The notes below the pieces were generated by a model. It was not told the DNA's origin, did not search any database, and was given only the letters and a program-made list of their open reading frames with translations. A stretch of DNA of 64,000 nt from a virus. The position numbers and the translations under genes were made by a program. The number at the start of each line of letters is the position of its first letter. Within the stretch, counting starts at the first letter, position 1. Below, piece by piece: positions 10,878 through 31,096 of the stretch. The stretch spans positions 16,470 through 80,469 of IMG/VR virus record IMGVR_UViG_3300025010_000007. One strand, written 5' to 3'.

Positions 10878-10906
10878 AAAGGAATCACCTCACTGTTGTC
10901 GAATAT
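10878..10906 (+). promoter_or_regulatory. Sigma-H (Spo0H)-type promoter 1
   Basis: -35 AAAGGAATC (10878-10886), 11 nt, then -10 GTCGAATAT (10898-10906). The known sigma-H consensus is RnAGGAwwW, 11-12 nt, RnnGAATww. The start codon of the downstream small gene is about 40 nt after the -10. Confidence 0.65.
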
Positions 10907-10946
10907 TGCCATGGGGTGTAATTCGAGAGAAAGAGAGGTGATTAAT

Positions 10947-11090
10947 ATTAGCGATAAACCAAAAGATGCTGAGAAACCCAGACTAGTACCAATACTCGAC
11001 CATGCCTTAAATGAATCGTACCTAAAAGAAACTGCAAGATTAACAGAACAAGTGGATAACGATCCACCGCCACCACCCAAGAAGCCTTAA
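10947..11090 (+). CDS. Small Pro-rich peptide of accessory cassette 1 (ATT start)
   Basis: 47 codons. AGAGAGGTG is followed after 6 nt by ATT, then SDKPKDAEKP. A longer in-frame ATG at 10896 has no ribosome site and lies within the promoter -10 region. By alignment with the paralogous cassette (GGGAGGTG, spacer, ATG TCA AAA), the ATT sits exactly where the other gene has ATG. The product is hydrophilic, has a predicted helical middle (NESYLKETARLTEQV) and ends in DPPPPPKKP. It converges on, and stops 2 nt before, the membrane-protein gene's end. Function unknown. Confidence 0.55.
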   Translation: MSDKPKDAEKPRLVPILDHALNESYLKETARLTEQVDNDPPPPPKKP

Positions 11091-11091
11091 T

Positions 11092-11754
11092 TTATTGCCT
11101 GAATTCTTCGGCCCTCCGTTTAGCATCTTCGTATGCTGACGGAGGGAAAAATTCATAAACTGTTTTAGTAACTGTATCTACGTATGTTCTTTCAGGCTTC
11201 TCAAGCCATCCATTCCAAGCTTGAAACTGCTCCGTACAAATTAAAAGCATTCCCTTGTCTTGAGCCCCAGGAGTCCAGCTTGCTTCAAATAAACCTACTA
11301 TCGCACATTCCTTCTTATCAATTTGGTAAACTCGAATAATAGCTTCTTTTTCGCTACCAACAAACTTCTCCCAAGCAGATTCTGACGACAGTACTGGACG
11401 TAGCCCATCCCGTTTTTTGTATGTCCAATTGAGAATAAATCTTCTCCCCTGCTTTTCCCACCATAAAGCTATTAGTAAAGCAACGATAAAAACAGTAAGA
11501 ATATAAAAAATAAAACACGGCATTTTTAAAGTAATAGCTTCAAAATCTATTATAGAAAGTTTTTTATGAAATCTAATTGATGCTGCTCCCCAAGTAAGTA
11601 AGATGCCTGGGATACTGAAAAGCAATCCGATTACTGTTTTCTCAAAATCAGTGGAAGTCTTGCTCTCAGATGGACCAATCATCCGTGCCAAATATGAAGC
11701 GATTATGCCGGGCAGCACCAATAAAATAGTGCCAAGTAAATTAAAATTAGTCAT
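11092..11754 (-). CDS. Multi-pass membrane protein of accessory cassette 1 (DUF6338-like)
   Basis: 220 residues with an N-terminal membrane helix ending LVLPGIIASYLARMIG, a second hydrophobic segment (EKTVIGLLFSIPGILLTW), a third (FIFYILTVFIVALLIALWW) and a cytoplasmic C-terminal domain of about 100 residues. It is paralogous to the protein at 14851-15504 (shared LPG-x-x-A near residue 15, EKxVIxxLFSIP, matching domain ends YVDTxxxxxxY). The family is seen in prophages and near defence genes, but its function is not known to me. Convergent with the small sigma-H gene. Confidence 0.75.
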   Translation of the reverse strand: MTNFNLLGTILLVLPGIIASYLARMIGPSESKTSTDFEKTVIGLLFSIPGILLTWGAASIRFHKKLSIIDFEAITLKMPCFIFYILTVFIVALLIALWWEKQGRRFILNWTYKKRDGLRPVLSSESAWEKFVGSEKEAIIRVYQIDKKECAIVGLFEASWTPGAQDKGMLLICTEQFQAWNGWLEKPERTYVDTVTKTVYEFFPPSAYEDAKRRAEEFRQ

Positions 11755-11813
11755 TGTTTCACCTCAATACTAGAGTTCGATATAATTTCCATTTTCCCCT
11801 CCAGTATATTCTT

Positions 11814-11837
11814 AAATTATTTCACGTGGAATAATTT
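11814..11837. promoter_or_regulatory. parS: parS-like palindrome, site 2
   Basis: A 24-bp near-perfect palindrome whose core is ATTATTTCACGTGGAATAAT. It lies about 60 bp upstream of the membrane-protein gene (start 11754), so sites 1 and 2 bracket cassette 1. Confidence 0.65.
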
Positions 11838-11880
11838 AAACAACCCCCCTTCCCTTTTCATCGATAAACTCTATCAATAG

Positions 11881-11906
11881 AAAAACACCCTGGGAATGGG
11901 TGTTTT
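11881..11906 (-). terminator. Terminator after the nuclease-fold gene
   Basis: Inverted repeat AACACCC / GGGTGTT with a 9-nt loop followed on the minus strand by a T run. The T-rich tail is present on both strands, so it may work in both directions. Confidence 0.65.
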
Positions 11907-11929
11907 AATCTAAATTTATGTCACCAGTT

Positions 11930-12358
11930 TCATTTTCTCGAACACTCTATCTTATCTGGCAATGTCTCAAAATCATAATCATCGGGAAAAACATCAATTA
12001 CTTTCCATCCAAGTCTGTTAAGCTCCCCGTCTCTTACCCTAGCCTTTCTACTAGAAAATATGGTTTTTGAGGTCCATATCTCAATGCCTACGGAACAGGT
12101 AGGAATGCCTATATCAAGATAATATAAAGGCTTTTCTTCAAATCCCAATAGCACTGGAAATTCAATTGCTGCAACATAGCTATTTTGTATTATTTTAATA
12201 AATGCAGACATTTTTAAGAAATAGTGTAGATATGTTTCATTTCTATGTTTACCATATCTACTTCTCAATGATTTATACATATCTTTGAGCGGGAACCCTT
12301 CAAAAACACCATTCCTTAAATCTTCATTTAATTTTTCGATATTAATGGTATCTACCAC
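11930..12358 (-). CDS. Putative nuclease-fold (DUF559/VSR-like) protein
   Basis: 142 residues. The pattern YYLDIGIP, SVGIEIWTSK, then RVRDGELNRLGWKVIDVFPDD is that of DUF559/VSR-type restriction-like folds, in which the D, the E-x-W/K strand and the basic helix before LGWxV form the active site. The match is partial, so catalytic activity is inferred. An accessory gene in the tail region; roles in mobility or defence are possible. Confidence 0.5.
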   Translation of the reverse strand: MVDTINIEKLNEDLRNGVFEGFPLKDMYKSLRSRYGKHRNETYLHYFLKMSAFIKIIQNSYVAAIEFPVLLGFEEKPLYYLDIGIPTCSVGIEIWTSKTIFSSRKARVRDGELNRLGWKVIDVFPDDYDFETLPDKIECSRK

Positions 12359-12386
12359 TTCTTATTCCTCCATGGGTTAAAAGAGT

Positions 12387-12429
12387 TTTAAGTTAAAATT
12401 CCGTTATCGACCAAATCAATAACGGAATT
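12387..12429 (-). terminator. Terminator downstream of the ParB-like operon
   Basis: An 11-bp inverted repeat AATTCCGTTAT / ATAACGGAATT (12397-12429) followed on the minus strand by TTTTAACTT. It closes the ParB-like gene and its broken follower. Confidence 0.65.
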
Positions 12430-12454
12430 AATGAGAATAGGTATCTTGACTCCC

Positions 12455-12696
12455 CTACTTAACCCGCCTTAACTGGCCCGGAATATTCCCATTAGACCAG
12501 CTAAATACAACCTCGCCCTTTAGGTCTATCTCTGCCTTTACCCGACCCAGGAGAACCCCTACAATCATAATCTTACCTATTTCTGCACCTGCCAAATCGC
12601 CGCTATCAATATCCTTATCCACCTGCTCAGCGGCTTTGCGTAATACGGCTGTTCAAACTGTTCAATTTGAGCCTGATTAATTTGAGGCAGATTCAT
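12455..12696 (-). pseudogene. Small gene broken by a -1 frameshift, downstream of the ParB-like gene
   Basis: ATG 12696 has GGAGGTG upstream and begins MNLPQINQAQIEQFEQ. About 50 nt in, the coding sense moves to the -1 frame and continues for about 60 codons to TAG 12455 (VLRKAAEQVDKDIDSG..., ending PGQLRRVK). Neither frame alone makes a full protein. The switch region (GAACAGTTTGAACAGCC) has no classical slippery heptamer, so this is more likely a one-base loss than programmed frameshifting. It overlaps the end of the ParB-like gene by 20 nt. Function unknown. Confidence 0.55.
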
Positions 12697-13756
12697 GATA
12701 CACCTCCACATAATTATCATTTACGTTAAGCTCATTTTCGATCTTGTCCAGCCATTGACGGGCTTTTATAATCGCTGACCTACATTCCATTCTTAATTCG
12801 GGCCGACTAATTAACCGAAGTGAACTGTTAATTACAAGTAAAGGGGCGGTTTTTTCAATAAAACCATATATCTGCATTATTACGTCAGTTGCCGCCTGTT
12901 CTTCTTTACGAAGTTCCGCTTCAGGACTTTCCCTTAATACCCTCTGCTCCTCATTCAACTGCTTAATCTTTGCCTGGTACCACTTTTGCTCCTCTTTTAG
13001 TTTGGATAACTGATCCTTAACCTTTTCCGGCACTACCTCCACCGTTACGGTTTTTTCTATGATCTCTGGCTCCTTATTTTGTGCTTCAGTCAACTTTCTT
13101 TCTAAATCCTGCACCCGGTTCTGCTCTGCCTTTGCTTTGGCCTCTGCATCCTTGGCTTTTCTTTCGGCAGCATCAAGTTTAGCCTTTGTTTCAAGGTGAG
13201 CCTTATTAATGCTGATTTTTTCCTCGTTGAGCTGCTGAATGATTTCCGGTTCTGCATGTTCCGCTATGAATTTGGCTTTACGGTATTGTTCACCACTACC
13301 AAACCCGATCTGCTCTGCAACCTCGTCTCTTGAATTGCCTGCTGCCTTACTTCCTGCAAAATTTTGCAGAATGTCATTTCTTGCACCTTGCCTTTGCTTA
13401 GCTCGTTCTTTCTCAATTAGTTCAATCTTATTGGAAAGTTCCATCATTTCTGTAAAGGTAAAATTTTTCCGGTGTGCGTTTTCTGCACGTTCTGCTTTAA
13501 ATTGTTGTAAATAATCCTCAAATTCTACTATTCTAACTTCAATCTGCTTTAGTCCAAGCGACTGACAGGCTCTAATCCTTCTCTCGCCGGCTACCAAAAC
13601 ATATTCTTTAGTGATTACAGGAGGTTGGAGAAGCCCTATTTCCTTAATAGAATCGGCAAGTTCCTGTAAGTCTCCTAGATCTTTTCTTGCTCGGTCAACT
13701 ACTTTAATTTGATTTATATCTACAAGCAAACTTTCACCCCCACCTTGTCCATCCAT
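12677..13756 (-). CDS. ParB-domain protein with long coiled coil
   Basis: 359 residues as written. TTG 13729 is a better start than ATG 13756, because GGTGGGGGTG precedes TTG and nothing precedes the ATG. Residues about 10-90 are a ParB/Srx fold with VLVAGERRIRACQSLG (CTP-binding GERR motif). Box ENAHRKNFT follows, then an HTH-like region (NSRDEVAEQIGFGSGEQYRKAKF). Residues 185-290 form a long Lys/Glu coiled coil. The C-terminus is helical. It is placed alone among tail genes, so it may be a partition or regulatory accessory protein rather than the main phage ParB. Confidence 0.8.
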   Translation of the reverse strand: MDGQGGGESLLVDINQIKVVDRARKDLGDLQELADSIKEIGLLQPPVITKEYVLVAGERRIRACQSLGLKQIEVRIVEFEDYLQQFKAERAENAHRKNFTFTEMMELSNKIELIEKERAKQRQGARNDILQNFAGSKAAGNSRDEVAEQIGFGSGEQYRKAKFIAEHAEPEIIQQLNEEKISINKAHLETKAKLDAAERKAKDAEAKAKAEQNRVQDLERKLTEAQNKEPEIIEKTVTVEVVPEKVKDQLSKLKEEQKWYQAKIKQLNEEQRVLRESPEAELRKEEQAATDVIMQIYGFIEKTAPLLVINSSLRLISRPELRMECRSAIIKARQWLDKIENELNVNDNYVEVYHESASN

Positions 13757-13792
13757 CGCCCTAAAGGGTAACCGCCTAAAGGCGGCAATATT

Positions 13793-13824
13793 AAAAGGAG
13801 GGATTATTTACCCTCCTTTTTTTG
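13793..13824 (-). terminator. Terminator at the end of the toxin gene
   Basis: Stem AAGGAGGG / CCCTCCTT (13795-13818) whose loop contains the toxin gene's stop codon. T runs flank it on both strands, so it can act in both directions. Confidence 0.6.
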
Positions 13825-14160
13825 TCTCAACATTTTAAGTATGTTCGTTCGTTTCTTGACTTTTCCAAGAACTTTACTTTTCTTAATTAGTGGGTAAGCG
13901 TTTTTCCGAGGACCGCAATAAACAACTTTGACTTCGTATTCGCTTAGTATTTCATATACCGCCCTATACGATTCGTCGTTATAATCTATAACAAACTTAT
14001 AACAGCCGATCAAGTCTCCACTCAAAGCAATGCCCGCCTCTATATCCTCATAGATGGCGGACAGTTCGGCTTTAAATAGTTCCTTTAATTCCGATGGACA
14101 CTTCTTTAAAAATTTTTTAGCCTCACTCACAAATTCTACACTAATCACCGAAAACGTCAT
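13804..14160 (-). CDS. RelE/HigB-type toxin
   Basis: 118 residues with the RelE-superfamily pattern: FVSEAKKFLKKCPSELKELF at the start, then a central strand LIGCYKFVIDYNDESYRAVYE and EVKVVYCGPRKNAYPLI. Such proteins are usually ribosome-dependent mRNA interferases. It overlaps the 3' end of the small upstream gene by 20 nt, the usual antitoxin-toxin coupling. The C-terminal basic tail (VKKRTNILKMLRQKKEGK) is typical. Confidence 0.7.
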   Translation of the reverse strand: MTFSVISVEFVSEAKKFLKKCPSELKELFKAELSAIYEDIEAGIALSGDLIGCYKFVIDYNDESYRAVYEILSEYEVKVVYCGPRKNAYPLIKKSKVLGKVKKRTNILKMLRQKKEGK

Positions 14161-14371
14161 CCCAAGAATACGTCTTTCCCGTCCTTGCTTCCCTACGTCC
14201 TTTTTCTATTTTAGATATTGCTAGCTTGTCCCTTTTAAGTGATGCTGTAGCTGCTATGTCCGGTTTTTTCTTCCCTCTAAACTTCGTTTCTATTGTAGCA
14301 ATAGCAGGTGGCATAGTAACACCCCTCTTCCTTAGTAATCCCTTTACTTTGTATTTTTTTCTGTTACTCAT
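14141..14371 (-). CDS. Cognate antitoxin of the RelE-like toxin
   Basis: Up to 76 residues. Two starts are possible: ATG 14371 with a weak GGGTGG, or ATG 14314 with GAGGGGTG 5 nt upstream (57 residues, MPPAIATIETKF...). The shorter form has the better ribosome site. The C-terminus (REARTGKTYSWDDVFGD) resembles toxin-neutralising tails of RelB/Phd-like antitoxins. The pair lies inside the tail operon and would stabilise the element or protect it. Confidence 0.55.
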   Translation of the reverse strand: MSNRKKYKVKGLLRKRGVTMPPAIATIETKFRGKKKPDIAATASLKRDKLAISKIEKGRREARTGKTYSWDDVFGD

Positions 14372-14606
14372 AGATTACCACCCTTATCCAAAATATAGAA
14401 GTAATTTATAGTTATTATTTCCATATTATAGGCTAAAATCCTGCTAGGTCAGAAAATATTTTTTGATTTTATGTATCAACTACTTATATTTTTCATATAA
14501 TATATATTTACCTATTTGGGACTTAAACATATATACCATTGCACTGGAGTTCTACAACCCCCCCCCCGGTTATCTTTTAACCGGAATTAACTTTTTCCCT
14601 ACCATT
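14372..14606. other. Non-coding stretch with poly-C tract and hairpin
   Basis: AT-rich, with no gene seen. It holds a run of 10 C (14558-14567) followed directly by an inverted repeat CCGGTTA / TAACCGG. A TATAAT at about 14428-14436 (minus strand) could be the -10 of the antitoxin promoter. Confidence 0.4.
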
Positions 14607-14635
14607 AAAGGAAACACCCCCCAGCTGTCGAATAC
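14607..14635 (+). promoter_or_regulatory. Sigma-H-type promoter 2
   Basis: -35 AAAGGAAAC (14607-14615), 11 nt, -10 GTCGAATAC (14627-14635). Same spacing to the start codon (about 41 nt) as promoter 1. Confidence 0.65.
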
Positions 14636-14675
14636 TGCAATTAATGGAGCGGTTTCGAGGAAGGGAGGTGTATTT

Positions 14676-14831
14676 ATGTCAAAAATACCACAAAAGTCAA
14701 TTAGAGGTAGCGCTAATGACAGTGCGACAAAAGCTTCTATAGTTCCAGATAATTTCTCAGTTACTAGACAAAGTATTATTCCCGATAAGGCGCAACAACC
14801 AGATACAAACCAAACTTCTGATAAAAAATAA
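14676..14831 (+). CDS. Small hydrophilic peptide of accessory cassette 2
   Basis: 51 codons, ATG with GGGAGGTG 6 nt upstream. Ser/Thr/Asp/Lys-rich and probably unstructured (begins MSKIPQKSIRGS, ends NQTSDKK). It occupies the same place as the cassette 1 peptide, behind a matching sigma-H promoter and convergent with a paralogous membrane-protein gene. The two peptides share little beyond their start, so function may reside in expression or charge rather than a fold. Unknown role. Confidence 0.6.
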   Translation: MSKIPQKSIRGSANDSATKASIVPDNFSVTRQSIIPDKAQQPDTNQTSDKK

Positions 14832-14850
14832 GATTCAATTAATCATCCTT

Positions 14851-15504
14851 CTAGCCCTCTATTTCTATTGCCTTATTAAATTCATTGGCATTGTATATAA
14901 CTACAGCAACTCCCGATTTTGTATCCACATAAACCCTATCGACCGGGACATTGTATTTAGTTACAATGTCCTCAACTTTTTTAGAATCAGCTAGAAGAAG
15001 GCATCTTTCTTCTGAGATACTTTCTGACATATTTATTGGACTTCCATAAACTTTTGCATCTTTCAATATGACCTTTACTGCCTGTGATTCTTCACCATGA
15101 AAAGCATCTTCCCAAACCAAATTCCCCTCATTAAGCTCTGCTTTATTATTACTTTTTCTAAATTTATTAATTAGTTTAATTGCAAATTCCTTTTTGACAA
15201 AACCATTCCAACATCCACAAACTACATAAGCCATTAATAAACTCGAAAACATATATAATACTAAACCGCTTAACGACTTTATTTCTGTCTGCAATTTCGT
15301 AATATTTGCCGCCTCTAAACTACCCTCTTTTAATGCCAATAAAAACAAATTACCAATTAATACTGGTATTGAAAAAAGAACAGCTATTACCAACTTTTCT
15401 ATATTAGTATATTTGGCAGAGGGGTGTGAGCCGACTCGTTCATTTATCAGTATTGCAATTAGCCCCGGAGCCAACAATAATATGTATGCGAGCAAAGTAT
15501 CCAA
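14851..15504 (-). CDS. Multi-pass membrane protein of accessory cassette 2 (DUF6338-like)
   Basis: 217 residues, paralogous to 11092-11754: N-terminal helix LLAYILLLAPGLIAILINERVG, then EKLVIAVLFSIPVLIGNLFL, a third helix LVLYMFSSLLMAYVVCG and a cytoplasmic domain ending RVYVDTKSGVAVVIYNANEF. The upstream region has TTATAAT, suggesting ordinary sigma-A transcription, unlike the convergent partner. Could be a superinfection-exclusion or signalling membrane protein; this is inference. Confidence 0.7.
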   Translation of the reverse strand: MDTLLAYILLLAPGLIAILINERVGSHPSAKYTNIEKLVIAVLFSIPVLIGNLFLLALKEGSLEAANITKLQTEIKSLSGLVLYMFSSLLMAYVVCGCWNGFVKKEFAIKLINKFRKSNNKAELNEGNLVWEDAFHGEESQAVKVILKDAKVYGSPINMSESISEERCLLLADSKKVEDIVTKYNVPVDRVYVDTKSGVAVVIYNANEFNKAIEIEG

Positions 15505-15561
15505 AACTACACCCCTTATTAAATTATAACAAAATATGTACTTAAAAGCTTCAATTTAAAT

Positions 15562-15593
15562 CTAATCCCCCGGCTAAAATCTGACCGGGGGAT
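15562..15593 (-). terminator. Strong hairpin at the end of the tail chaperone frameshift product
   Basis: A 10-bp GC-rich stem AATCCCCCGG / CCGGGGGATT whose loop holds the TAG of the frameshifted reading frame. Only a weak T-rich tail follows. Confidence 0.55.
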
Positions 15594-16052
15594 TCTTTTC
15601 GTTCCAATCATTAACAACCTGCACGCATGCCAAAAGTTCAACCTCTGTCATGTCCATCGCTTCGGCATATGAAATACCTGCTCCGGAAGCCAAGGAAAGT
15701 TCGATCCGCAACTTGAACCATCCTTGATTTGCTAGTTTTTTGCCAGTTCCTCAAGCTTATCCTTTACAGACCTTGGCATGTTTTCTTTTTCAAATTCAGC
15801 CCATTCCTCATAAGTGAATTTATCCATCACCTCAAATATTTCAGCAAGGTTTTGAGGTACATCCACCTTTTCCCCATTAACGGCATCGACACTAATAATG
15901 TTCTGTACGGTCAAGGTTGACATAACGCCACCAATATTATGCCCACCTTCATCCATACTTGACGCTAAAAGTTTGCGCTCAATAAAATGGTGCTGGCCCT
16001 TCTTTTCCCGTAATTCAATTTTCTTACCGGTCGATAAAATAATTTCTAACAT
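15574..16052 (-). CDS. Tail assembly chaperone, -1 frameshift long form
   Basis: The 106-codon gene ends GCA AAA AAC TAG. At the slippery heptamer A AAA AAC (15741-15735) a -1 shift continues for 53 codons (LANQGWFKLRIE..., ending KNPPVRF) to TAG 15574, giving about 159 residues. The extension is clearly coding, and its position between tail tube and tape measure genes is where lambda G/GT-like chaperones lie. The long form recruits tape measure protein during tail assembly. Confidence 0.8.
15732..16052 (-). CDS. Tail assembly chaperone, short form (XkdN-like)
   Basis: 106 residues from ATG 16052 with CTGGAGG upstream. The sequence begins MLEIILSTGKKIELREKKGQ, contains a helical region (QNLAEIFEVMDKFTYEEW) and ends with the frameshift site. 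In PBSX-like phages XkdN occupies this place and serves as the G-like chaperone. Confidence 0.8.
   Translation of the reverse strand: MLEIILSTGKKIELREKKGQHHFIERKLLASSMDEGGHNIGGVMSTLTVQNIISVDAVNGEKVDVPQNLAEIFEVMDKFTYEEWAEFEKENMPRSVKDKLEELAKN
15735..15741 (-). promoter_or_regulatory. Programmed -1 frameshift slippery site
   Basis: A AAA AAC in the zero frame, immediately before the UAG stop of the short chaperone. A canonical X XXY YYZ heptamer. Confidence 0.8.
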
Positions 16053-16107
16053 GAACTATACCTCCAGAATTTTAATTTATTTTAACGTGGTTTTTCCACG
16101 CTCTTAC

Positions 16108-16545
16108 CTATGAGATTTTGCTACGCTTAACCGCATGCCAGTTTAATGTATTATTGAAAGGTTTATTATTACCGTCAACCGACTTCTTAAAGCCATCAAA
16201 GGTAACCCCTTCATATTTGTACTTTCGAACGGTGCCGTCCTTATAAGTCTCAGTAGTAAAAATCAAAAACTTAAGCGTACCGCCGTTTTGCTCCTGATAT
16301 TCGTTCTTTTTATCTACAATGTCATCGTAGGCTGTATTTACGCTTTGCCCTTCAATACTCCCCTTCCAGCCGCTTTGGATGACCTGGCGGTGCTCGGTTT
16401 CCTCACCAATGGGATTCTTTTTTTCTTCACTGGTTATTTCTTCAACCGACCATTTTAGGATTTCCGGTGTTTTCTCCAGAACATTACCTAATTCATCGGT
16501 TAGGGCAACTACAAGTTTTTTACCCAGCAATCCATCTTTGGCCAT
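16108..16545 (-). CDS. Tail tube protein (XkdM-like)
   Basis: 145 residues, ATG with GGAGGTG. Beta-rich with a DELGNVLEKTPEIL start and a typical tube end GFKKSVDGNNKPFNNTLNWH. It follows the sheath gene by 1 nt, the universal order in contractile tails. Confidence 0.85.
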   Translation of the reverse strand: MAKDGLLGKKLVVALTDELGNVLEKTPEILKWSVEEITSEEKKNPIGEETEHRQVIQSGWKGSIEGQSVNTAYDDIVDKKNEYQEQNGGTLKFLIFTTETYKDGTVRKYKYEGVTFDGFKKSVDGNNKPFNNTLNWHAVKRSKIS

Positions 16546-16546
16546 A

Positions 16547-18076
16547 TTAATTCACCTCCACATTTGTACCGCCTTGGAAATTAAGTAAAATCCACTCAGC
16601 GGTATTGTAGTGTTTGACCTTAATGTTCTGAACAAACTGATCGATAGCTGCTGCTGCATCATCGAAGGCGATTGAATACGCCTCGATTTTACTTGTTTCT
16701 TGTTCATCAACCGGTGCAACAAGGTTATCAAAAAAAGTTCGGATCCTGCGCTCTGCATTGCCTTTCATAACCTTCGTCATAGCCTTACCCTGCCAGGGAG
16801 CTGCCACAGCCTCTAATGCTTTTTCAATCCAGCTATTTAACCGGCGCTTATTTACTTTGCGGTTTTCATCATCACTGATTAGTTCACCTGCCACATCGGT
16901 CTTAGCAAGAGTGTAATCGTTAGCTATGCGCCAGGCCAAAGAACCATCACCGGCTGCCGAAGGTTTAAGCTGGAAGGCAGCAATCTGATGATTATATAAC
17001 TGGGAATACTGGTCAAAGTCAAGTTCCTGCTCTGCCCCGGATACCCAAGTACATTCTACGGCAAGGCCGGAATCTTCGATGTTTCCGATTACATGGGCAA
17101 TGGCCGACAAGCAAGCACCGGAGGTATATTGGTCTCCCACTGATTTATAACGACCATAGACCATCTGCATAAAGTCAGTGTCATAAGTATCCCGGTAAGT
17201 GACAGCAGCATCCACATTAGCTGCAGAACCGATACCACAATATGTCAAACAGTTGTACTTCTCACCGAAAGCATATAATGCAGCATCAGCCGTGGCCTCG
17301 GAGAAGTCGGCAAGGGCTACATCAGATACAACTGTTCCCACTAACTCCAAAAGTTTAAGACCGGTTCGTTTACCTGTACCAGAGTCGTAGGTACCAATAT
17401 AATCAGCTGCAGTAAGTGCTGCTCCGTTAGAACCACTGGTTAACTGTGTTTGAGCCAGTACAGCTGGACGGGCATCGGTAAAGGATGCAGCATCGGATTG
17501 TAAATCCTCCAAAACAAAATGCTCGCTGCGAGAATTGACATAGGTTACCGCATATCGAGCACTTGCCGGATCCATACTTAAGTTGTCATAGGTTTCAAAG
17601 CCACCGATATCAGACCATAACATCAGTTTAAATGTATTGGCATCGGTTCCATCGGCAGCTTGTACGGTAAAGATGTTGGCATACTCACCCGGACCGGCTT
17701 TTGGTGTCACCTTAAGAGTTGGATCCGGTGTTACTTGTCGGTCATTCAATGTTTTGCTGGCTATGGCGTATCCGGCACACAGAACCCGCACAAAAACAGC
17801 TTTTTTAACCCGTGCCCGGTGTAGATGGTCTAACAGGGCGTTACCCTTTTTGGATGCAGTTGTCAATCCCAGCACCGACGCTACAATCTCAGAAAGACGT
17901 TTGGTCGGCGTTTCGCTGGCGTAAACATACTGGTTAACTGGTCCCCGGTCGAAATCACCCACAAAACCCAACACAAAGTCCTTCAAGTCTACTGCATCCG
18001 ACTGCGGCACAGCTAACTCATTAATATATAAGCCTGGTGGGTACCCGGCTAAAGATGTTACTCCACGTAAAATCAA
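16547..18076 (-). CDS. Tail sheath protein (XkdK-like)
   Basis: 509 residues from TTG 18076 with AGGGGGG 6 nt upstream. The N-terminus GYPPGLYINE is the sheath handle arm. The C-terminal domain shows the conserved helix-strand region (NSWIEKALEAVAAPWQGKAM, then IEAYSIAFDDAAAAIDQFVQ, ending KHYNTAEWI). This is the contractile sheath surrounding the tube. Confidence 0.92.
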   Translation of the reverse strand: MILRGVTSLAGYPPGLYINELAVPQSDAVDLKDFVLGFVGDFDRGPVNQYVYASETPTKRLSEIVASVLGLTTASKKGNALLDHLHRARVKKAVFVRVLCAGYAIASKTLNDRQVTPDPTLKVTPKAGPGEYANIFTVQAADGTDANTFKLMLWSDIGGFETYDNLSMDPASARYAVTYVNSRSEHFVLEDLQSDAASFTDARPAVLAQTQLTSGSNGAALTAADYIGTYDSGTGKRTGLKLLELVGTVVSDVALADFSEATADAALYAFGEKYNCLTYCGIGSAANVDAAVTYRDTYDTDFMQMVYGRYKSVGDQYTSGACLSAIAHVIGNIEDSGLAVECTWVSGAEQELDFDQYSQLYNHQIAAFQLKPSAAGDGSLAWRIANDYTLAKTDVAGELISDDENRKVNKRRLNSWIEKALEAVAAPWQGKAMTKVMKGNAERRIRTFFDNLVAPVDEQETSKIEAYSIAFDDAAAAIDQFVQNIKVKHYNTAEWILLNFQGGTNVEVN

Positions 18077-18087
18077 TGTTATCCCCC

Positions 18088-18645
18088 CTAAAATTCTTGA
18101 ATCTTAGGCTTAAATTTACTTACATCAATGGCACTTACCAATTCCTCGGTGAATAACTTTCCGCGGCAGGAAAATGTTAAATCGCTTTGATACAGCCCTG
18201 TTTCTCCTCTGGGTGGAAGTGGTGAACCTTTGGTGAAAATTTGTACCGTTTCACCCCATTTATCATCCTGGATGGGGATTTCGTTTTCTGTTTCGATGTA
18301 AACCATAAATTCTGTAGCCAGGCGCAGTGCAGTTCCCTGTCGCTCGGCAAAAAAAGAAACCTGGATAAGGTAGTCAAACCGCAGGATTTCAGTTCCAACC
18401 GTGTAAGTACCGTCCCCGTTATCAATTAGTCCATGTGGCTCATACTCACGCATTAGAGCCTTTTCAGAAGTACCACTGACATATGAGATATTGGCCCCTG
18501 GAAGCACCGGTTTGTTATTATCCTTGGGATCTAGGGTAAATTCCGTTGGGTCGGGTTGCTCATCCCTTACTATAAACTCAGCCCCGTGAACTACTCGGAC
18601 TGCAGTTTTGATTGCCTTGTACATTTCAACTAACGGGTCTCTCAT
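18088..18645 (-). CDS. Head-tail/neck protein
   Basis: 185 residues, not confidently assigned to a family. Its place directly upstream of the sheath and downstream of a gp10-like gene is that of tail terminator or tail completion proteins. Segments such as DDKWGETVQIFTKGSPLPPRG and SDLTFSCRGKLFTEE agree with the beta-rich tail terminator fold. Overlaps the gp10-like gene by 4 nt. Confidence 0.6.
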   Translation of the reverse strand: MRDPLVEMYKAIKTAVRVVHGAEFIVRDEQPDPTEFTLDPKDNNKPVLPGANISYVSGTSEKALMREYEPHGLIDNGDGTYTVGTEILRFDYLIQVSFFAERQGTALRLATEFMVYIETENEIPIQDDKWGETVQIFTKGSPLPPRGETGLYQSDLTFSCRGKLFTEELVSAIDVSKFKPKIQEF

Positions 18646-20309: not shown

Positions 20310-20314
20310 CCGCC

Positions 20315-23344: not shown

Positions 23345-23447
23345 AATATCCCCCTTTCATAAGTTAAAGAAAGTTAATAGTAACGTGTCGGTTCTCTCGC
23401 CTTTGCCAAATCTATTCACCGTCCTTGCTATTTACTTTTTTAGCTTT

Positions 23448-26400
23448 TTAATCTACTGGCAATAAACTGCATCGGCAGTTGCCACACCAGGCAGCTTTTC
23501 CATTTCGTCTAACCCAGAGAATGTGGTTTTTCTCTAGTTCTACACAATAAACCTTATCGTCATAGTATTTATTGAGTATTTTAACGCCGTTCTTTCTACC
23601 TCGCTGATAGATTGAACACTTCTTGTTGTTGATGTAGATTACCCATATATCGTGGTTTATCGTGTATGTTCCGTTACTGAAAACCTGTTGTTTGCCCTTG
23701 GTTTTGCGCAAAGTAAAAGACGGGTAGAATCCCGCCTTCAAAATAACTTCACCGAGGTCTGATGCCATTAACGTTGAGTAGGTGTCAATTTTTCTACCAA
23801 TAGACTTAAATTCTTTTTCCTTCCAACTGGTTACTTTTATATTTCCATCCCCAAGCACATAAGCATCAAGGAATAGGTTTAACTGCTCTCTTGGTAGTTT
23901 CTTTATTTCTTCGGGAACATATCTTACATGTTGCTGTCCCATTTGCTCAAGATATTTACCAAGTGGAACGCTGTTAATATAAAACTTACCCTGTCCCCTA
24001 TTAACCTTAACTGGCATATCTTTAATGTCATTGTAAATCTTTTTATAATTATCCGTTTTTTCTTGGGTAATAGAAATTTGATAAGCATTTTCTCCACGCT
24101 TAACAGTAGAACCTTCACTCAGATAATAACCCATAAACTTAGTAAAAATATCTACAGGTATTTGCAGTCCGTTAATATCAATATGTCTTAAATACTCACC
24201 AGACCAATTACAAACTTTATTAACGTAAAACTCGGACAAATCCATTAATTTACCTGCATCAACAAGACCCCATCTTAGTTTTCTTTTAGCACCCTTACGC
24301 TCTCCAATATACATTTGATGATTAGGAGTAACCATCATGTCAAGACTATTAGATTTTAAACTTATCATATCGCCTTCATAGCTGTAGGAGATGTTTTTAA
24401 CACTTGATGTCCATTCCGGTTGATGCGTCTCTGGATTTAAGGATAAAAACTTCTCGTCACCAATCAGTTTGGAAAACTTTATCCAACCTCTATCAGTATA
24501 GACTTCTGTTTCTTTGTCGTAACAGCGCGGGTGAGCCGGACAATCTGGATGATTGTCTATCGGATACGTTTCCCCATTCCGCCCCCGGCATATAGGGCAC
24601 GTCCGTTGGTCTAACACTGCCGACCATTCTACACGAGCAAAGCCAGCGTCCCGGTATATTCGCTTAGCACTTCGATTATATGCCCAGCTGAGTTCCGTTC
24701 TCGCTATCATCTCTGCCCGAACTTCATTCACAATAATAGGCTGCAACTGCTTCATAATGTTTTTCCAGCCTAGATCCTGCTCAAAACCTTCGGTCAAGGC
24801 TCCTCGAATTTGTTTAAGGGTTGTATCTTTAATCCCCTTAATACGTTTTCCAGATTCATTAAACAAATCATCTCGGATGTCACTTTTTACAATACGAGGT
24901 TTGATTTTTACACCACTGGTACCGGGCGGGACATCACCACTACCACCTTGTCCGCCAGAACTACTTTTAGCCTCTACCAACTGCAAAGCTCTTACTGCAC
25001 CAATAACTGCAGCTTCGGTCATTTGATTTGTGATACCCACCTGGTATTTACTTTCTTTTTCGTCCCATGCATCCTCCAAAACCGTAATAATGGAATCCTC
25101 TGAGAATTCGTTGACCTCATCGGTTACTGAGACATCTCCACTATATTTAAGCATCCGAGTATAAACGGCACGAAAAAAACGCAGTACGGTTGCCTGCGCT
25201 TTCTGCTCTATCGCTTCCATGACCGGACGGTCTTCCAGGAGAACATCTGTAACCAGGTTATCCTCGCTTTCCTCTTCCTCCGGGTCTTCGCCAGGTTTTA
25301 GCTTGTCCCTTGCAATGTTGGGTTTAGCTGCAGCCATGACCGCCCTGTCCCGGGCCTCTTCCTCTTCAACCAGTCGGGCCATCTCTTCTGGATCCTCAAT
25401 ATCAAAATCGTTAGCAGATGCCTGGATAGCCTTTAACCGAGTAATAACTTTAACACCCTTGTTTGCACCCAGGGCTTTTTGAACCCTGTCCATGCGCTCA
25501 TTGGGTGTTTCGTCAGTTTTATCACTCCAAACAATGTCGTAACTAATAGCATCAGGGTTAATCCCGGTCAATAATAGCTGCAAATCAATAATTGCTCTTA
25601 ACCCAGAGAACGGTCCGGGATCACCATACTCCAACACATCAGTTATATCCTCCAGAGTCTGCAGGTAGTGCGGGTACTGGACTTTTAGCACATCCCGGTT
25701 AATGTCTGCACCGGCTGTCAGTACAGCTTTCGGTACACTTAGATTCAGCCAAAGCAGTTCCTCGAAATATTTAACGTCGTCCATCTCACTCAGGTTAGTA
25801 GTATCATTTAGTGCCGTTACTTGTGCAGTACCTACGAAGTCAGACAAGAGATGTGCGTTTTTTGTTGGGTTACCATCCTTATCAACAAGCCCAACGTTAC
25901 GCATGTACTCAACGACCTGAGTTTCCCCTGTATTGTCTGGAAGTTTATGACTCCTCTTTTTAACACTTCGGAATTCCCGCCTTATGGCCGTTGCTCGCTC
26001 CATCCTCTGTAGGATGCTAAATATAGCTCTGGCAGATTTATAGTGACTTGTGCCGTAATTTTCTGTTTCCTCACACAGCCACCGGATATGATTCATTTGA
26101 AACAGGGCAAAGTGTCCTCTTGCCTCGCTCGGAGGACCAATTTCCATTAGGGTATGTATTTGGGTTTTAGGGTCTATCTGACTGAACGCCTTTTCTGGGT
26201 CTGGGAATTCACCATACTCATCATTGTTTCTCTTGATTGTCAGTACCGGTCCTTGGCGAACATCCAAAATTAATCCGGCAGCTAAATCAACCAATGGATT
26301 TAGAAACAAGTCGCCATCCCGGACTAAACCCCTGGTATAACCTTTTGCCTTAGCCTGTAATTTAGTTCGCGTCAGTAAGTCGTCTATAACCTGCTGGGCT

Positions 26401-26750
26401 ATATTAGCACCCGGTGTTAGACGTTTTAGCACCGACTTCCCTTTCTTTCGCCTGGCCTGCCTATACGTTTCGCTGCCGTGTACCACAACCTTAAATCCCC
26501 CACGCGCTGCATCGGCGGCCAGCCTAAGATTAGTCATCGTAAAACGGAGATCATGCTTGACTAACTTTTGAACATCACGGACAACAGATATACGATCAGT
26601 TGCAAGCTTAAACTGCTCATATATATAAAGCTGTGGCGACTCAGCATAGCTTACTTTGGCTGATTCGGTTGTTTTTGTTGTACGGTCTGGTTCAGGAGTA
26701 ACCTTAGAGCGCCCAAAGAAATCCATAACTTTCGTGAATATATTAGCTAT
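23448..26750 (-). CDS. Portal-MuF (SPP1 gp7-like) fusion interrupted by an intein
   Basis: From ATG 26726 the product has 1092 residues. Extending to ATA 26750 gives MANIFTKVMDFFGRSK and places AAAGGTGG at the right distance, whereas ATG 26726 has no ribosome site. Residues 1-480 are portal-like. Residues 480-735 form the head-morphogenesis domain with VLDQRTCPICRGRNGETYPI. That domain's conserved end, HPxCRC, is split by a 349-residue intein, after which CRCSLLPVD completes it. The spliced protein is about 743 residues (751 with the ATA start). It follows TerL in the packaging block. Confidence 0.88.
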   Translation of the reverse strand: MANIFTKVMDFFGRSKVTPEPDRTTKTTESAKVSYAESPQLYIYEQFKLATDRISVVRDVQKLVKHDLRFTMTNLRLAADAARGGFKVVVHGSETYRQARRKKGKSVLKRLTPGANIAQQVIDDLLTRTKLQAKAKGYTRGLVRDGDLFLNPLVDLAAGLILDVRQGPVLTIKRNNDEYGEFPDPEKAFSQIDPKTQIHTLMEIGPPSEARGHFALFQMNHIRWLCEETENYGTSHYKSARAIFSILQRMERATAIRREFRSVKKRSHKLPDNTGETQVVEYMRNVGLVDKDGNPTKNAHLLSDFVGTAQVTALNDTTNLSEMDDVKYFEELLWLNLSVPKAVLTAGADINRDVLKVQYPHYLQTLEDITDVLEYGDPGPFSGLRAIIDLQLLLTGINPDAISYDIVWSDKTDETPNERMDRVQKALGANKGVKVITRLKAIQASANDFDIEDPEEMARLVEEEEARDRAVMAAAKPNIARDKLKPGEDPEEEESEDNLVTDVLLEDRPVMEAIEQKAQATVLRFFRAVYTRMLKYSGDVSVTDEVNEFSEDSIITVLEDAWDEKESKYQVGITNQMTEAAVIGAVRALQLVEAKSSSGGQGGSGDVPPGTSGVKIKPRIVKSDIRDDLFNESGKRIKGIKDTTLKQIRGALTEGFEQDLGWKNIMKQLQPIIVNEVRAEMIARTELSWAYNRSAKRIYRDAGFARVEWSAVLDQRTCPICRGRNGETYPIDNHPDCPAHPRCYDKETEVYTDRGWIKFSKLIGDEKFLSLNPETHQPEWTSSVKNISYSYEGDMISLKSNSLDMMVTPNHQMYIGERKGAKRKLRWGLVDAGKLMDLSEFYVNKVCNWSGEYLRHIDINGLQIPVDIFTKFMGYYLSEGSTVKRGENAYQISITQEKTDNYKKIYNDIKDMPVKVNRGQGKFYINSVPLGKYLEQMGQQHVRYVPEEIKKLPREQLNLFLDAYVLGDGNIKVTSWKEKEFKSIGRKIDTYSTLMASDLGEVILKAGFYPSFTLRKTKGKQQVFSNGTYTINHDIWVIYINNKKCSIYQRGRKNGVKILNKYYDDKVYCVELEKNHILWVRRNGKAAWCGNCRCSLLPVD
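23478..24524 (-). mobile_element. Intein with LAGLIDADG homing endonuclease in the portal-MuF gene
   Basis: 349 codons inserted before Cys+1 of CRC. Block A is CYDKETEVYTDRGWIKFSKL. Block B region is DMMVTPNHQMYIG (TPNH). The LAGLIDADG motifs are FMGYYLSEGS and FLDAYVLGDGN. The end is VELEKNHILWVRRNGKAAW then CGN followed by Cys. The penultimate residue is Gly in place of the usual His. Self-splicing of the precursor is expected from the family, and the endonuclease would copy the intein into empty alleles. Confidence 0.92.
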
Positions 26751-26771
26751 TTTTTATCACCACCTTTGCAA

Positions 26772-26801
26772 AAGAAAAACACCCGGTTATCCAGGTGTTA
26801 T
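26772..26801 (-). terminator. Terminator after the 111-residue gene
   Basis: Stem AACACCTGG / CCGGGTGTT with loop ATAA, followed on the minus strand by TTTTTCTTTTG. It stands directly before the portal gene, so it separates the sigma-H-driven gene from the portal. Confidence 0.7.
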
Positions 26802-27133
26802 CCGTATTTCTTTTTAGCCTTCTCCAGGTTTCCCCTAGCTTCAGTAGCTCCTTGTTCTATATTCCTATAGTGCTCAATCATTGCCCTGTAAGCTCTAATT
26901 GCTTTTTCATCATCAATCCCGACTACTTGCCCTGGACGTTTTTCCTCCAGCACCACAGACGCCTTTTCAAAACCATCGGCCAAGGATTTAACCGATTCCT
27001 CCAGCAGTGTAGCCTGCTCAATTAACTCATGCCAGTTGATATCCAGGCTTAACCTAAAAGATAAGGGGTTTTCTTGGTTTGCCTCATTTTTGTTCACAAT
27101 TCCAAGGGAAACGATTTTACCTTTATCAGCCAT
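26798..27133 (-). CDS. Sigma-H-driven accessory protein in the packaging block
   Basis: 111 residues with AGAGAGGTG before ATG 27133. Helical, with a central WHELIEQATLLEESVKSLAD and a charged helix EARGNLEKAKKKYG at the end. It splits TerL from portal, which are normally adjacent, has its own sigma-H-type promoter (27165-27193) and its own terminator, all signs of a self-contained accessory gene. Function unknown. Confidence 0.75.
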   Translation of the reverse strand: MADKGKIVSLGIVNKNEANQENPLSFRLSLDINWHELIEQATLLEESVKSLADGFEKASVVLEEKRPGQVVGIDDEKAIRAYRAMIEHYRNIEQGATEARGNLEKAKKKYG

Positions 27134-27164
27134 CAGAGCACCTCTCTTTATAGTTATTAGGACT

Positions 27165-27193
27165 ATATTCGACGCGCTCTGCCGCTTTCCTTT
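27165..27193 (-). promoter_or_regulatory. Sigma-H-type promoter 3
   Basis: On the minus strand -35 AAAGGAAAG (27193-27185), 11 nt, -10 GTCGAATAT (27173-27165). It fills the gap after the TerL gene and points to the 111-residue gene. Confidence 0.65.
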
Positions 27194-27196
27194 AAT

Positions 27197-28723
27197 TTAC
27201 CAATCATCTTCTGTATCTCCGAAAACTGCTGAAATATCAGCCTTGACAGACATGCCTACAATATGTTTAATGTTTTTCGCTGCTCGCATAAGGTACCCCA
27301 AACACTTCATAAAATCATCATGCCCCTCAGTCTCATTAACAAAAAACTTAAGCTTTTGATGAGCCTTTATTTCATAGCGGCAAAGCCTTACTTGTTCCCA
27401 AAATTCCTTATATTCCTCGCTGCTATCATCGGCAAACATTTTTAATAACCCGGTATTTACCCGAGCCAATATATCAAAACCATCCTCGCTATTCGTTACA
27501 TCAGTTGACTGATGCTCCTCTAATTGGTGATATTTTTTTGCCAGCCAGGAGGATATATCTGCACCAATACCACGGGCATCAGAAATAACAAACTCGGGCC
27601 GCCATAACTGCAGATCAGATAAAAGTTCCAACTTTTGCTGGTCGAAGTCATGACCAGTGCGGTAAGTTATCTCCACAACATTTATTCGGGGGTCGGTATT
27701 AATCGCATCACAAACTGAGAAATCAAGTTCCCCAATTATGAGCACCGTACTATCCTTTTGTGGCTTTAAACCCCGCAGGACTGCATCTTGAGCTTCCTCA
27801 TCCTTACCGGCAATATCTATCGCAGCTACATACCGGCGACCTACTTTAGGTTTATGGTATCGCTTATGTTCCCCCTGTAGCTTTGCCTTCTGCTGCTCGT
27901 TAAAAAACTTGCCAGCAGCGGCAATGGCCTTTAGCAAGTACTGAGTTTGAATAATCGGGTGCTCTAATCCAAGACGCTCAACTTCGCGGTTAAAGTATGT
28001 TTTATAATCCGGATTATGCTTGGCTACCTCATAGGCATCATATTCAAAATGGTACCTTTCCTCCGGTGGTAAATCCTTAACACGGCAGCCCAGTTCCCGA
28101 GCCCGGCCCTCATCCTTCTTAATATTTATCTGCCGCTGCTTTTCCAACATGTTGTCAGTGTCCCAGGCAGTACCCCAAAACACCGTTGTAACTGCTTTGT
28201 TAGCACCCATTGGAGCGAAGTCTTTATCATACTTCTGTTGATTTACGTCCTGAGCTTCGTCTATCTCCAGGAGTATATCAGCTGTAGCACCGACTACTTG
28301 AGCAGTTGGTTCGGCAGAAAAAAAGGCTATTCGTGCCTTACCCAGCACCCTCATAAATCCAAAGCTCCCCCGGTGAAGCTTACGAGTGAGCGGGTTATCC
28401 AAGACCTCCTGAAGCCGAATCATCGAGTTTACAATTTGCGGCTTCCAGGTAGGAGCCGCCTTCACAATGGTTCCACCCCGCTTTTTATTCCGGGTAAGCA
28501 AAAAACCCTCCAATTGTGCGGAGGATTCGTTTTTTCCACTTTGGCGGGACATCATCACAGTAATGATTTTGGATTTTTTATTTTCGATACTATCAATAGT
28601 GCAGAGTAATGGGTCTACCTGGTACGGACGAAGGGCTTTACTTTTTCTTAAGCGACGGGAGAATTGCCTAATATCCCGGATAATTAAACGAATAACCGCC
28701 TTTTTGCGTTCTCGTTTATCCAT
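27197..28723 (-). CDS. terL: Terminase large subunit
   Basis: 508 residues from ATG 28723 (overlaps the TerS stop by 8 nt; a TTG 7 codons upstream is less likely). ATPase: Walker A-like VMMSRQSGKNESS (about residues 50-62) and Walker B ILLEIDEAQD. Nuclease: YVAAIDIAGKDEEAQD, ISDARGIGAD and HDDFMKCLG supply the three acidic positions of the RNase H-like domain. It packages DNA with the portal. Confidence 0.93.
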   Translation of the reverse strand: MDKRERKKAVIRLIIRDIRQFSRRLRKSKALRPYQVDPLLCTIDSIENKKSKIITVMMSRQSGKNESSAQLEGFLLTRNKKRGGTIVKAAPTWKPQIVNSMIRLQEVLDNPLTRKLHRGSFGFMRVLGKARIAFFSAEPTAQVVGATADILLEIDEAQDVNQQKYDKDFAPMGANKAVTTVFWGTAWDTDNMLEKQRQINIKKDEGRARELGCRVKDLPPEERYHFEYDAYEVAKHNPDYKTYFNREVERLGLEHPIIQTQYLLKAIAAAGKFFNEQQKAKLQGEHKRYHKPKVGRRYVAAIDIAGKDEEAQDAVLRGLKPQKDSTVLIIGELDFSVCDAINTDPRINVVEITYRTGHDFDQQKLELLSDLQLWRPEFVISDARGIGADISSWLAKKYHQLEEHQSTDVTNSEDGFDILARVNTGLLKMFADDSSEEYKEFWEQVRLCRYEIKAHQKLKFFVNETEGHDDFMKCLGYLMRAAKNIKHIVGMSVKADISAVFGDTEDDW

Positions 28724-29684
28724 CGACCAACCCTTCTTCTTCAATCACTTCATCTAGAAGAATATCGTCATCCCCGCTACCTTTTGCCTTCTCGATATCA
28801 GCCTTCAGTTTTTCAATACGTAATCTGTGCTCTTCAACTACCAGGCCCTTAAGCTCATATCTTTCCACCATATCTTCATAACGCAAAATAAGACCCTCCA
28901 AGGTCTTCATAGCAGTGCTCTGGGCTTTCAAGAAACCAGCCTGCTTATCCCATGCAAATTGGAGCTCCCATTCTTTCTCCCAGCTATCACTTTGCATACC
29001 GCTGGTTTCCTTCTGGCGTTTCAAGACCTTAGTTAAATCATCCTGATCCTTAACAAACATAATCTTCTGCGCCCTGGCTATAGCTGTATACTGAATCACA
29101 ATTTGTTCCCAAAGAATATCCAGAGGACTTTTTTCTATAATCTCATTTACAATGGCCCTGGTCTCCTCATCATCGGGGAATATACGAGCAAAGAACCCGT
29201 GTTTCAGGTTGTTTTGTGTTCCCGGTGACGGACCCGTACTCTTCCCCCCGTGAAACTTGCACTTATCTTTACCCGGCTCCGCCTTCTTCTTACAGCGCTC
29301 CCCAGTCCCTTTACATTTCGCGGTACACTGGCCCGGTCGGCCATCCAGGTGAATCTGGCAGAAACGCTCCCCATCTAAAGCCTTATTACGGCAGCGTTCA
29401 CCAGACTTATGGCCCATAGCTTCACATTGGCCGGGGAAAGGATCTGTCTTGTTTTCTGTTGTAGTACTACACTCAGTATCTGTAGTACTACAGTTATTTT
29501 TTGTAGTACTACACTTTTCTTTTTGTGATACTACATTCCATTTATCCCGACACTTCCAGGCACTAATTGTTTTTTCTTTTTCTCCGAGCAGTTCAGCAAT
29601 TTGACGATTAGTTATGTTTCCATCATGTTCGATCCATATTTGACATGCCTTTTCTCTATTTGGATTACGAACTACACGGGACAT
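28716..29684 (-). CDS. terS: Terminase small subunit with Cys-rich insert
   Basis: 322 residues from ATG 29684. N-terminal HTH (NITNRQIAELLGEKEKTISAW), as in phage terminase small subunits. A 7-residue repeat CSTTxxx occurs at about residues 60-80, coded by the 21-bp DNA repeats. A Cys/His-rich section (GQCEAMGHKSGERCRNKA and a similar GQCTAKCKGTGERCKKKA) forms two related modules. The usual GPSPGTQNNLKHGFFA segment follows, then a helical C-terminus. The duplicated Cys module may bind metal; that is unusual for TerS. Confidence 0.85.
   Translation of the reverse strand: MSRVVRNPNREKACQIWIEHDGNITNRQIAELLGEKEKTISAWKCRDKWNVVSQKEKCSTTKNNCSTTDTECSTTTENKTDPFPGQCEAMGHKSGERCRNKALDGERFCQIHLDGRPGQCTAKCKGTGERCKKKAEPGKDKCKFHGGKSTGPSPGTQNNLKHGFFARIFPDDEETRAIVNEIIEKSPLDILWEQIVIQYTAIARAQKIMFVKDQDDLTKVLKRQKETSGMQSDSWEKEWELQFAWDKQAGFLKAQSTAMKTLEGLILRYEDMVERYELKGLVVEEHRLRIEKLKADIEKAKGSGDDDILLDEVIEEEGLVDG
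29460..29535. repeat. Four 12-bp palindromic repeats at 21-bp steps inside terS (candidate pac site)
   Basis: TGTAGTACTACA at 29460, 29481 and 29502, and TGTGATACTACA at 29524. The steps are 21, 21 and 22 bp, two helical turns, so the sites lie on one face of the DNA. Many headful phages carry pac within terS. Confidence 0.6.
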
Positions 29685-29715
29685 CACCTCACCTTCTTTG
29701 CTTCGATGTCAAACA

Positions 29716-29736
29716 GAAAAGAGCCCGAAGGCTCTC
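29716..29736 (-). terminator. Terminator after the 203-residue membrane gene
   Basis: AGAGCC TTC GGGCTCT followed by TTTTCTG on the minus strand, starting within the stop codon region. Confidence 0.75.
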
Positions 29737-30347
29737 TAATCTCTTGGTTGTTCTAACATTATATTTTTAATAATTGGCATTAAATCATAGTTAAAATTAT
29801 AGTGTTTTATTTGTTTTTTCTCATATGACTTATATCGCAATACAAAAGTTACATTTGATTCTTTTAGATGTGACTTAATATCAGGTATTTTATCTTGATA
29901 CTGAAAACCTTCTCCATAACCGTCTATCTCCAATTTTATTCCAAGTGATTTAACTATTTGTTGATATGGAGATAGTGGACATAAGCCAGTTGGATCTGAT
30001 ATTTCTAATTGTCGATATATTTCACCCCTAATAACTCCTTTGTGTTCTAATTTACATTTAATTTCTCCTAAGGCTATAGCATTTGCACCAATATTCCTTA
30101 TTAGTACAGGTATGCCGATAAGAAAGTGTACAGGAGTATTACAGTATCGACCACCAACCGCTTCAGTGTATTCTTTTGGGCTCATATAAAGATGTATTTC
30201 AGGTTTACCCTTTTTAAACCTTGTAAAATACAGTGCCATGCCAGAAAAAACCAATGATATAAACGATAGAACTACTGATATAGATGCTGGCAAATAATCT
30301 ATCCAAGTCTTGTGACTCGAATAAAAATTAAACACAAAAGGGAACAT
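29736..30347 (-). CDS. Sigma-H-driven membrane-anchored accessory protein
   Basis: 203 residues, ATG with AGGAGTG. One membrane helix at about residues 15-40 (WIDYLPASISVVLSFISLVF), then a basic stretch and a soluble beta-rich domain. A sigma-H-type promoter and its own terminator flank it. It sits between TerS and the sigma-like late regulator, where structural phages usually have no such gene. Function unknown. Confidence 0.75.
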   Translation of the reverse strand: MFPFVFNFYSSHKTWIDYLPASISVVLSFISLVFSGMALYFTRFKKGKPEIHLYMSPKEYTEAVGGRYCNTPVHFLIGIPVLIRNIGANAIALGEIKCKLEHKGVIRGEIYRQLEISDPTGLCPLSPYQQIVKSLGIKLEIDGYGEGFQYQDKIPDIKSHLKESNVTFVLRYKSYEKKQIKHYNFNYDLMPIIKNIMLEQPRD

Positions 30348-30385
30348 TAATAAACACTCCTAAAACACAATCTCTCCAACTACTG

Positions 30386-30414
30386 ATATTCGACATAAGG
30401 GGATGTTTTCCTCT
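30386..30414 (-). promoter_or_regulatory. Sigma-H-type promoter 4
   Basis: On the minus strand -35 AGAGGAAAA (30414-30406), 11 nt, -10 GTCGAATAT (30394-30386); start codon about 40 nt downstream. Confidence 0.6.
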
Positions 30415-31058: not shown

Positions 31059-31096
31059 AATGTGAAATCACCTCCCAATTGTTTACTTCGGCAAGG

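Follow-up and report, generated by a model that had tools for sequence, protein, structure and literature searches.

The window analysed here is a stretch of 64,000 nucleotides (nt) of phage DNA, bases 16470-80469 of the 80,469-base virus record IMGVR_UViG_3300025010_000007. Since it carries a tyrosine integrase and a Spo0E-like gene (Table 1), the phage is temperate and its host probably belongs to the Bacillota. Among its genes lie four elements, sites 1 to 4, that resemble promoters of the host sigma factor sigma-H and each precede one gene, hereafter called cargo. A sequence-only reading had described them as sigma-H promoters set before accessory genes. It missed an arm inside the spacer between the -35 and -10 boxes that can mask the ribosome-binding site (RBS) of the gene downstream, as well as the Spo0A-box (0A) core TGTCGAA, which overlaps the -10 in three of the four sites.

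Form and geometry of the sigma-H-type sites

The consensus of sigma-H promoters is RnAGGAwwW-N11-12-RnnGAATww. All four elements were confirmed at the positions and in the form first described. The form RnAGGAww-N12-GTCGAATA occurs four times in the 80-kb record, its spacer being 11 nt in the convention of the sequence-only reading. Chance scatter was ruled out as their origin by counts in shuffled and resampled sequences: the 64 kb hold four AGGA-N14/15-GTCGAAT matches where 0.06 are expected and none of 100 shuffles reached four, and in the whole record the GTC form gave four matches without mismatch and four with at most one, where 60 Markov-resampled sequences averaged 0 and 0.22. As for the full consensus, core boxes and spacing are present at all four sites and only the one at 30414 matches without any mismatch; there is one mismatch at 10878, one at 27193 and more than one at 14607. 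Start codons follow about 31-40 nt downstream. The placement inside late operons stands for sites 3 and 4, which are codirectional within the packaging operon, but sites 1 and 2 lie on the + strand, opposite to the late genes around them.

Two imperfect copies had also been listed. The one before the lipoprotein-like gene is probably real, because it has a single mismatch and its RBS lies in a strong hairpin (fold z -2.8). The one before the gene at 30444 is weak and may be due to chance, since it lacks a hairpin (z +0.2) and 11 sites with at most one mismatch were seen in 80 kb where about three are expected.

Viral contigs were scanned with AGGAAA...GTCGAATA...GGAGGTG, any spacing between 6 and 20 being accepted. 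The 35 sites obtained were rigidly spaced, 22 at 11 and seven at 12, and the six scattered others lacked the remaining features. A purine two bases 5' of AGGA, which the scan did not demand, was present in 28/29 of the sites spaced at 11 or 12; two A/T follow AGGA in nearly all of a larger site set, part of which was chosen with AGGAAA. When the nn of GNNGAAT was left free, TC was found in 22 of 28 viral sites, several of these being related, compared with one of eight Bacilli spoVG promoters, which mostly show other letters, and with mixed letters at 30 chromosomal Bacilli matches. One arm-bearing site (L270) has AC instead, so TC is preferred and not absolute.

The same form precedes known sigma-H targets. 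It was found before spo0A in two sequences (L153 and L158; TIGR02875, E-values 7e-118 and 2.5e-115), before a partial spo0A in L141, and before dnaG in Clostridia (L133 and relatives, L268). Followed by GGAGG it is present in 142 of 301 Bacilli genomes, the reversed pattern giving only about a dozen matches, and 37 of 291 Clostridia genomes had a match. Among the promoters assigned to SigH in C. difficile, which have mapped starts and are down in a sigH mutant, are those of spo0A (AGGAATATAATTTTGGAGTGTCGAATA) and lplA (AGGAGTTTTTATATTATTGTCGAATTA) (PMC7438776 Table 3). The assignment to sigma-H thus gains independent support from spo0A and dnaG, from the C. difficile promoters and from the rigid spacing. 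Judged by form and known targets it is well supported, and the sites would probably depend on sigma-H.

Table 1. Positions within the window of the sigma-H-type sites, their anti-RBS arms, the cargo and other features discussed in the text (aa, amino acids; ORF, open reading frame).
Feature	Position	Strand	Remarks
Site 1, sigma-H-type promoter	10878..10906	+	AAAGGAATCACCTCACTGTTGTCGAATA; -35 AGGA, 11-nt spacer, -10 GTCGAATA
Site 2, sigma-H-type promoter	14607..14635	+	AAAGGAAACACCCCCCAGCTGTCGAATA
Site 3, sigma-H-type promoter	27165..27193	-	AAAGGAAAGCGGCAGAGCGCGTCGAATA; directly after terminase stop codon
Site 4, sigma-H-type promoter	30386..30414	-	AGAGGAAAACATCCCCTTATGTCGAATA
Imperfect copy	10725..10753	-	1 mismatch; precedes lipoprotein-like gene 9833-10702
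Weak copy	31084..31113	-	1 mismatch, spacer 12, GAAG; precedes gene 30444-31049
Arm of site 1	10883..10891	+	AATCACCTC pairs with 10935-10943 GAGGTGATT; RNA fold z -2.2
Arm of site 2	spacer	+	ACACCCCCC pairs with 14663-14671 GGGAGGTGT; fold z -3.0, 0/200 shuffles
Arm of site 3	spacer	-	CAGAGC pairs with GCTCTG at RBS/start; fold z -3.8
Arm of lipoprotein copy	spacer	-	AATACCTCTCC pairs with GGAGGGGTATT
Cargo ORF 1, 47 aa	10947..11090	+	likely start ATT 10947, GTG 10938 possible; convergent with DUF6338 gene 11092-11754
Cargo ORF 2, 51 aa	14676..14831	+	convergent with DUF6338 gene 14851-15504
Cargo gene 3, 111 aa	26798..27133	-	between terminase and portal
Cargo gene 4, 203 aa	29736..30347	-	putative N-terminal membrane segment (by eye)
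Spo0E-like gene, 62 aa	42923..43111	-	PF09388, E 2e-5, 24.9 bits, cut-off 23
Tyrosine integrase	57324..58547	+	PF00589, E 5.5e-18

Complementarity between spacer and ribosome-binding site

At sites 1-3, in the lipoprotein leader and in the viral population, a 5' arm located upstream of the point where transcription is expected to begin pairs with the RBS of the gene that follows; this is not the case at site 4. The folds of sites 1, 2 and 3 and of the lipoprotein leader are better than those of shuffled sequences (z -2.2 to -3.8). In established sigma-H geometry the transcript begins 3' of the -10, and the arm would therefore be present only in longer transcripts. We compared the probability that the Shine-Dalgarno (SD) sequence is unpaired in the long and in the sigma-H transcript. 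It rises from 0.14 to 0.65 at site 1 and from 0.29 to 0.70 at site 3, a clear switch, and no switch was seen at site 4 (0.23 and 0.26).

The complementarity is gene-specific and extends across unrelated phages. Phage contigs show the same arm layout in other letters, as in L020 (TATATCCCTCC/GGGAGGGATATA), L094 (AACCCCCTTTCA/TGAAAGGGGGTT) and L052 (ACACCTTCCTT/AAGGAGGTGT). For a set of 67 strictly dereplicated viral sites, with other genes of the same phages as controls, mean pairing of spacer and RBS was -8.76 kcal/mol for true partners and -7.18 for swapped ones (sd, standard deviation, 0.26), with none of 5000 permutations as low as the true value; the stretch upstream of the -35 gave -6.21 and the other phage genes -4.22. 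Pairing of -11 kcal/mol or below was reached by 33% of the viral sites vs 3% of control genes. At the viral sites the probability of an unpaired SD is 0.28 for the long transcript and 0.52 for the sigma-H transcript, the control genes having 0.44 and 0.53. A broader set of 128 sites, dereplicated at 85% and mostly viral with some chromosomal loci, gave energies of -8.9 for true and -7.35 for swapped partners (sd 0.19), the value for the sequence 5' of the -35 being -5.4. Many viruses of the Bacillota share this layout, and the genes that it marks are of unknown function.

Related arrangements were encountered outside this set. The promoter before dnaG of uncultured Clostridia (L133-L135, L137, L139, L143-L147) has a AAATACCT/AGGTATTT arm before the RBS, found by a search that itself fixed ACCT, and shows the same design on a chromosome. 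At three loci (L028 7448-7492, L236 and L169) the RBS pairs instead with bases directly 3' of the -10 (e.g. GTCACCTTAAAGGGAGGTGAC); the hairpin would then stay in the sigma-H transcript, which makes this a different arrangement. Two Bacteroidota sequences (L142, Spirosoma; L149, Saprospiraceae) match AAAGGA...ACCT...GTCGAATA with a complementary stretch nearby and, because this group to our knowledge lacks sigma-H, are probably chance matches. Among the C. difficile SigH promoters, those of fusA1 (ACCTCC) and CD1543.1 (AAACCTCTTTT) have spacers that resemble an anti-SD sequence (PMC7438776 Table 3).

A proposed translational lock on starvation-type promoters and its alternatives

We favour, at a probability of about 0.68, the reading that sigma-H-type promoters drive the cargo of a temperate phage of the Bacillota, one gene each, when the host passes from growth to starvation, most of them with an anti-RBS lock. 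A transcript initiated upstream would include the arm and fold over the RBS, leaving the cargo untranslated, whereas one initiated by sigma-H would lack the arm, keep its RBS free and be translated. As to the purpose, we prefer, with lower confidence, that of a portable cassette that would be silent wherever it is inserted. Insulation from late read-through is only partly supported: sites 3 and 4 are codirectional by the terminase genes, which fits silencing during late transcription.

Several observations weigh against the lock or its purpose. With sites 1 and 2 antisense to the late genes, shielding from late read-through cannot fully account for the lock. Among the 67 viral sites the orientation of cargo relative to its neighbours, as obtained by crude gene calling, is random and uncorrelated with arm strength, and a link between the hairpin and codirectional late operons was not supported. 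Site 4 (z +0.16) and the copy before 30444 show no convincing hairpin relative to shuffles, and at site 2 the RBS is partly paired even in the short transcript (SD unpaired 0.13 in the long and 0.33 in the sigma-H transcript). A strong arm is missing at about half of the viral sites, so the lock is common and not universal. Gene-specific pairing is weak at Bacilli chromosomal sites (z -2.0) and was dropped as a general trait of these.

The armless sites, the low gene specificity on Bacilli chromosomes and the independence of arm strength from operon context are what would be expected if these were plain sigma-H promoters with a non-functional hairpin, the pyrimidine-rich spacer suiting the polymerase or reflecting drift and the SD complementarity being incidental. 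We regard this as unlikely, given that swapping partners costs 1.6 kcal/mol of mean pairing and that perfect gene-specific helices, such as those of L020 and L094, run past the SD core.

Other alternatives concern the -10. The 7-bp core published for the 0A box is TGTCGAA (PMC3485338). It lies within the -10 of sites 1, 2 and 4, and a T directly precedes GTCGAAT in 96% of the strong-arm viral sites. C. difficile SigH promoters, however, usually have a T before the G even where they form no 0A box (TGTAGAAT) (PMC7438776), so a second function of the -10 is no more than a possibility. This bears on an extended form of the favoured reading, a shared double-locked cassette of temperate spore-former phages in which sigma-H would gate transcription and the spacer translation, TGTCGAA would double as a Spo0A box, and cargo would be expressed in a starvation pulse before sporulation, its length set by the Spo0E-like protein. 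We consider this extension doubtful.

That TGTCGAA is primarily a Spo0A box, with the genes under Spo0A~P alone or together with sigma-H, seems improbable: the Spo0E-like gene and the T of the strong-arm sites would suit it, as would the binding of the Spo0A DNA-binding domain to DNA upstream of C. difficile ssuA and lplA, whose SigH promoters both contain TGTCGAA, but Spo0A does not explain an AGGA at fixed distance, site 3 has CGTCGAA, and the T is shared with promoters that are not 0A boxes. Slimmer still are the chances of an RNA regulator, i.e. a riboswitch-like or protein-bound leader transcribed from upstream, in which AGGA and GUCGAAUA would be conserved RNA letters and the hairpin would open on a signal; conserved letters on both sides of the 5' arm and a GTC steadier than the sigma-H consensus needs (22/28) speak for it, but the spacing is 11-12 regardless of the stem, spo0A and dnaG are preceded by the form without an arm, C. 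difficile SigH promoters with mapped starts show it too, TC is replaced by AC in at least one site with an arm, and the window contains no Rfam match, so that an RNA element alone is disfavoured.

If the favoured reading is true, many Bacillota phages would read the host's starvation decision through a host sigma factor and keep their cargo silent otherwise, by a two-layer control for which T4 is the sole earlier description that we found. The signature AGGAww-[anti-RBS]-GTCGAAT-RBS would then flag, in phage genomes, genes of unknown function that are expressed in the lysogen, and which dark phage genes act in the lysogen, and when, would become a testable question.

Cargo, neighbouring genes and comparison with known systems

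The proposal that the genes behind the sites are accessory held where it could be tested. Site 3 and its 111-aa gene are absent between terminase and portal in a relative (L007/L008; terminase 82% identical); such presence or absence of gene plus promoter was observed at this site only, the others being without comparable relatives. A PHROG and Pfam scan covered 38 proteins, namely 35 at hairpin-bearing or related sites (of other phages and site 3), that of site 4 and the two imperfect-copy genes. No PHROG with a known function was matched by any of the 38, nearly all of which lie behind such sites; the domains returned by Pfam were a PIN domain, zinc ribbons and others that are uncharacterised. 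Defence-system models gave no match to the cargo, nor did a search of named phages with the DUF6338 protein and the 203-aa protein. The Spo0E-like gene noticed by the sequence-only reading proved real, its PF09388 score being above the cut-off. To look for the host, the terminase was compared with genome contigs and with 399 genomes from a single phylum; this returned no match and, without positive control, shows little.

A small ORF behind a site lies tail-to-tail with a gene for a DUF6338 membrane protein at 10896-11754 and 14463-15504, in L076 (330-1258) and in L185 (about 5489-6512). L076 carries the 51-aa ORF of site 2 (85% identical) and the convergent DUF6338 gene (80%), with the site again before the small ORF; in L185 a DUF6338 relative (26% identical) lies beyond a site, in the same convergent layout by coordinates. 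The two stand together in three or four places whose DNA is divergent, and may form a functional pair. Between the two sigma-H/DUF6338 units of the window, a ParE-like toxin gene (PF15781) and an overlapping small upstream gene (13804-14371) probably constitute a toxin-antitoxin pair, adjoined by a ParB_N protein (12677-13756). A single 1092-aa frame (23448-26726) holds a portal domain together with a Mu F-like domain (head morphogenesis), and by eye seems to contain an intein near its end (CYDKETEVYTDRGW ... CGNCRCSLLPVD).

The sites share with the sigma-H promoters of Bacillus and Clostridioides, such as that of spo0A, the -35 AGGAww, the 11-12 nt spacer, the GNNGAAT -10 and the purine of RnAGGA, and the C. 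difficile spo0A promoter has the GTCGAATA form itself. They differ from these in that they front cargo genes, that their -10 is almost always GTCGAAT, and that the spacer complements the RBS of the gene. Like phage morons, the cargo consists of single accessory genes amid phage genes with a promoter of their own, the one tested (site 3) being absent in a relative; unlike morons, one starvation-tied promoter type stands over unrelated cargo together with what would be a translational lock, and some of the cargo is antisense to its neighbours. An earlier description of prophage sigma-H promoters with RBS masking was not found in the open-access literature, the coverage of which was incomplete.

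The closest parallel is provided by genes e, soc, 49 and I-TevI of phage T4, whose early transcripts hide the RBS while transcripts from the late promoter do not (PMC3014915, PMC2988022). Here as there the 5' arm and the RBS stand on either side of the promoter, so that the RBS would be masked in long transcripts and free in those that begin at the promoter. Where T4 uses a phage late promoter, these sites have one of a host starvation type, and the genes behind them are cargo of a temperate phage. Their arm, whose function is putative, is located inside the -35/-10 spacer and recurs over unrelated genes and phages. A known sigma-H promoter and a known promoter-in-hairpin logic would thus be newly combined on phage cargo, a combination that appears recurrent in the phages searched.

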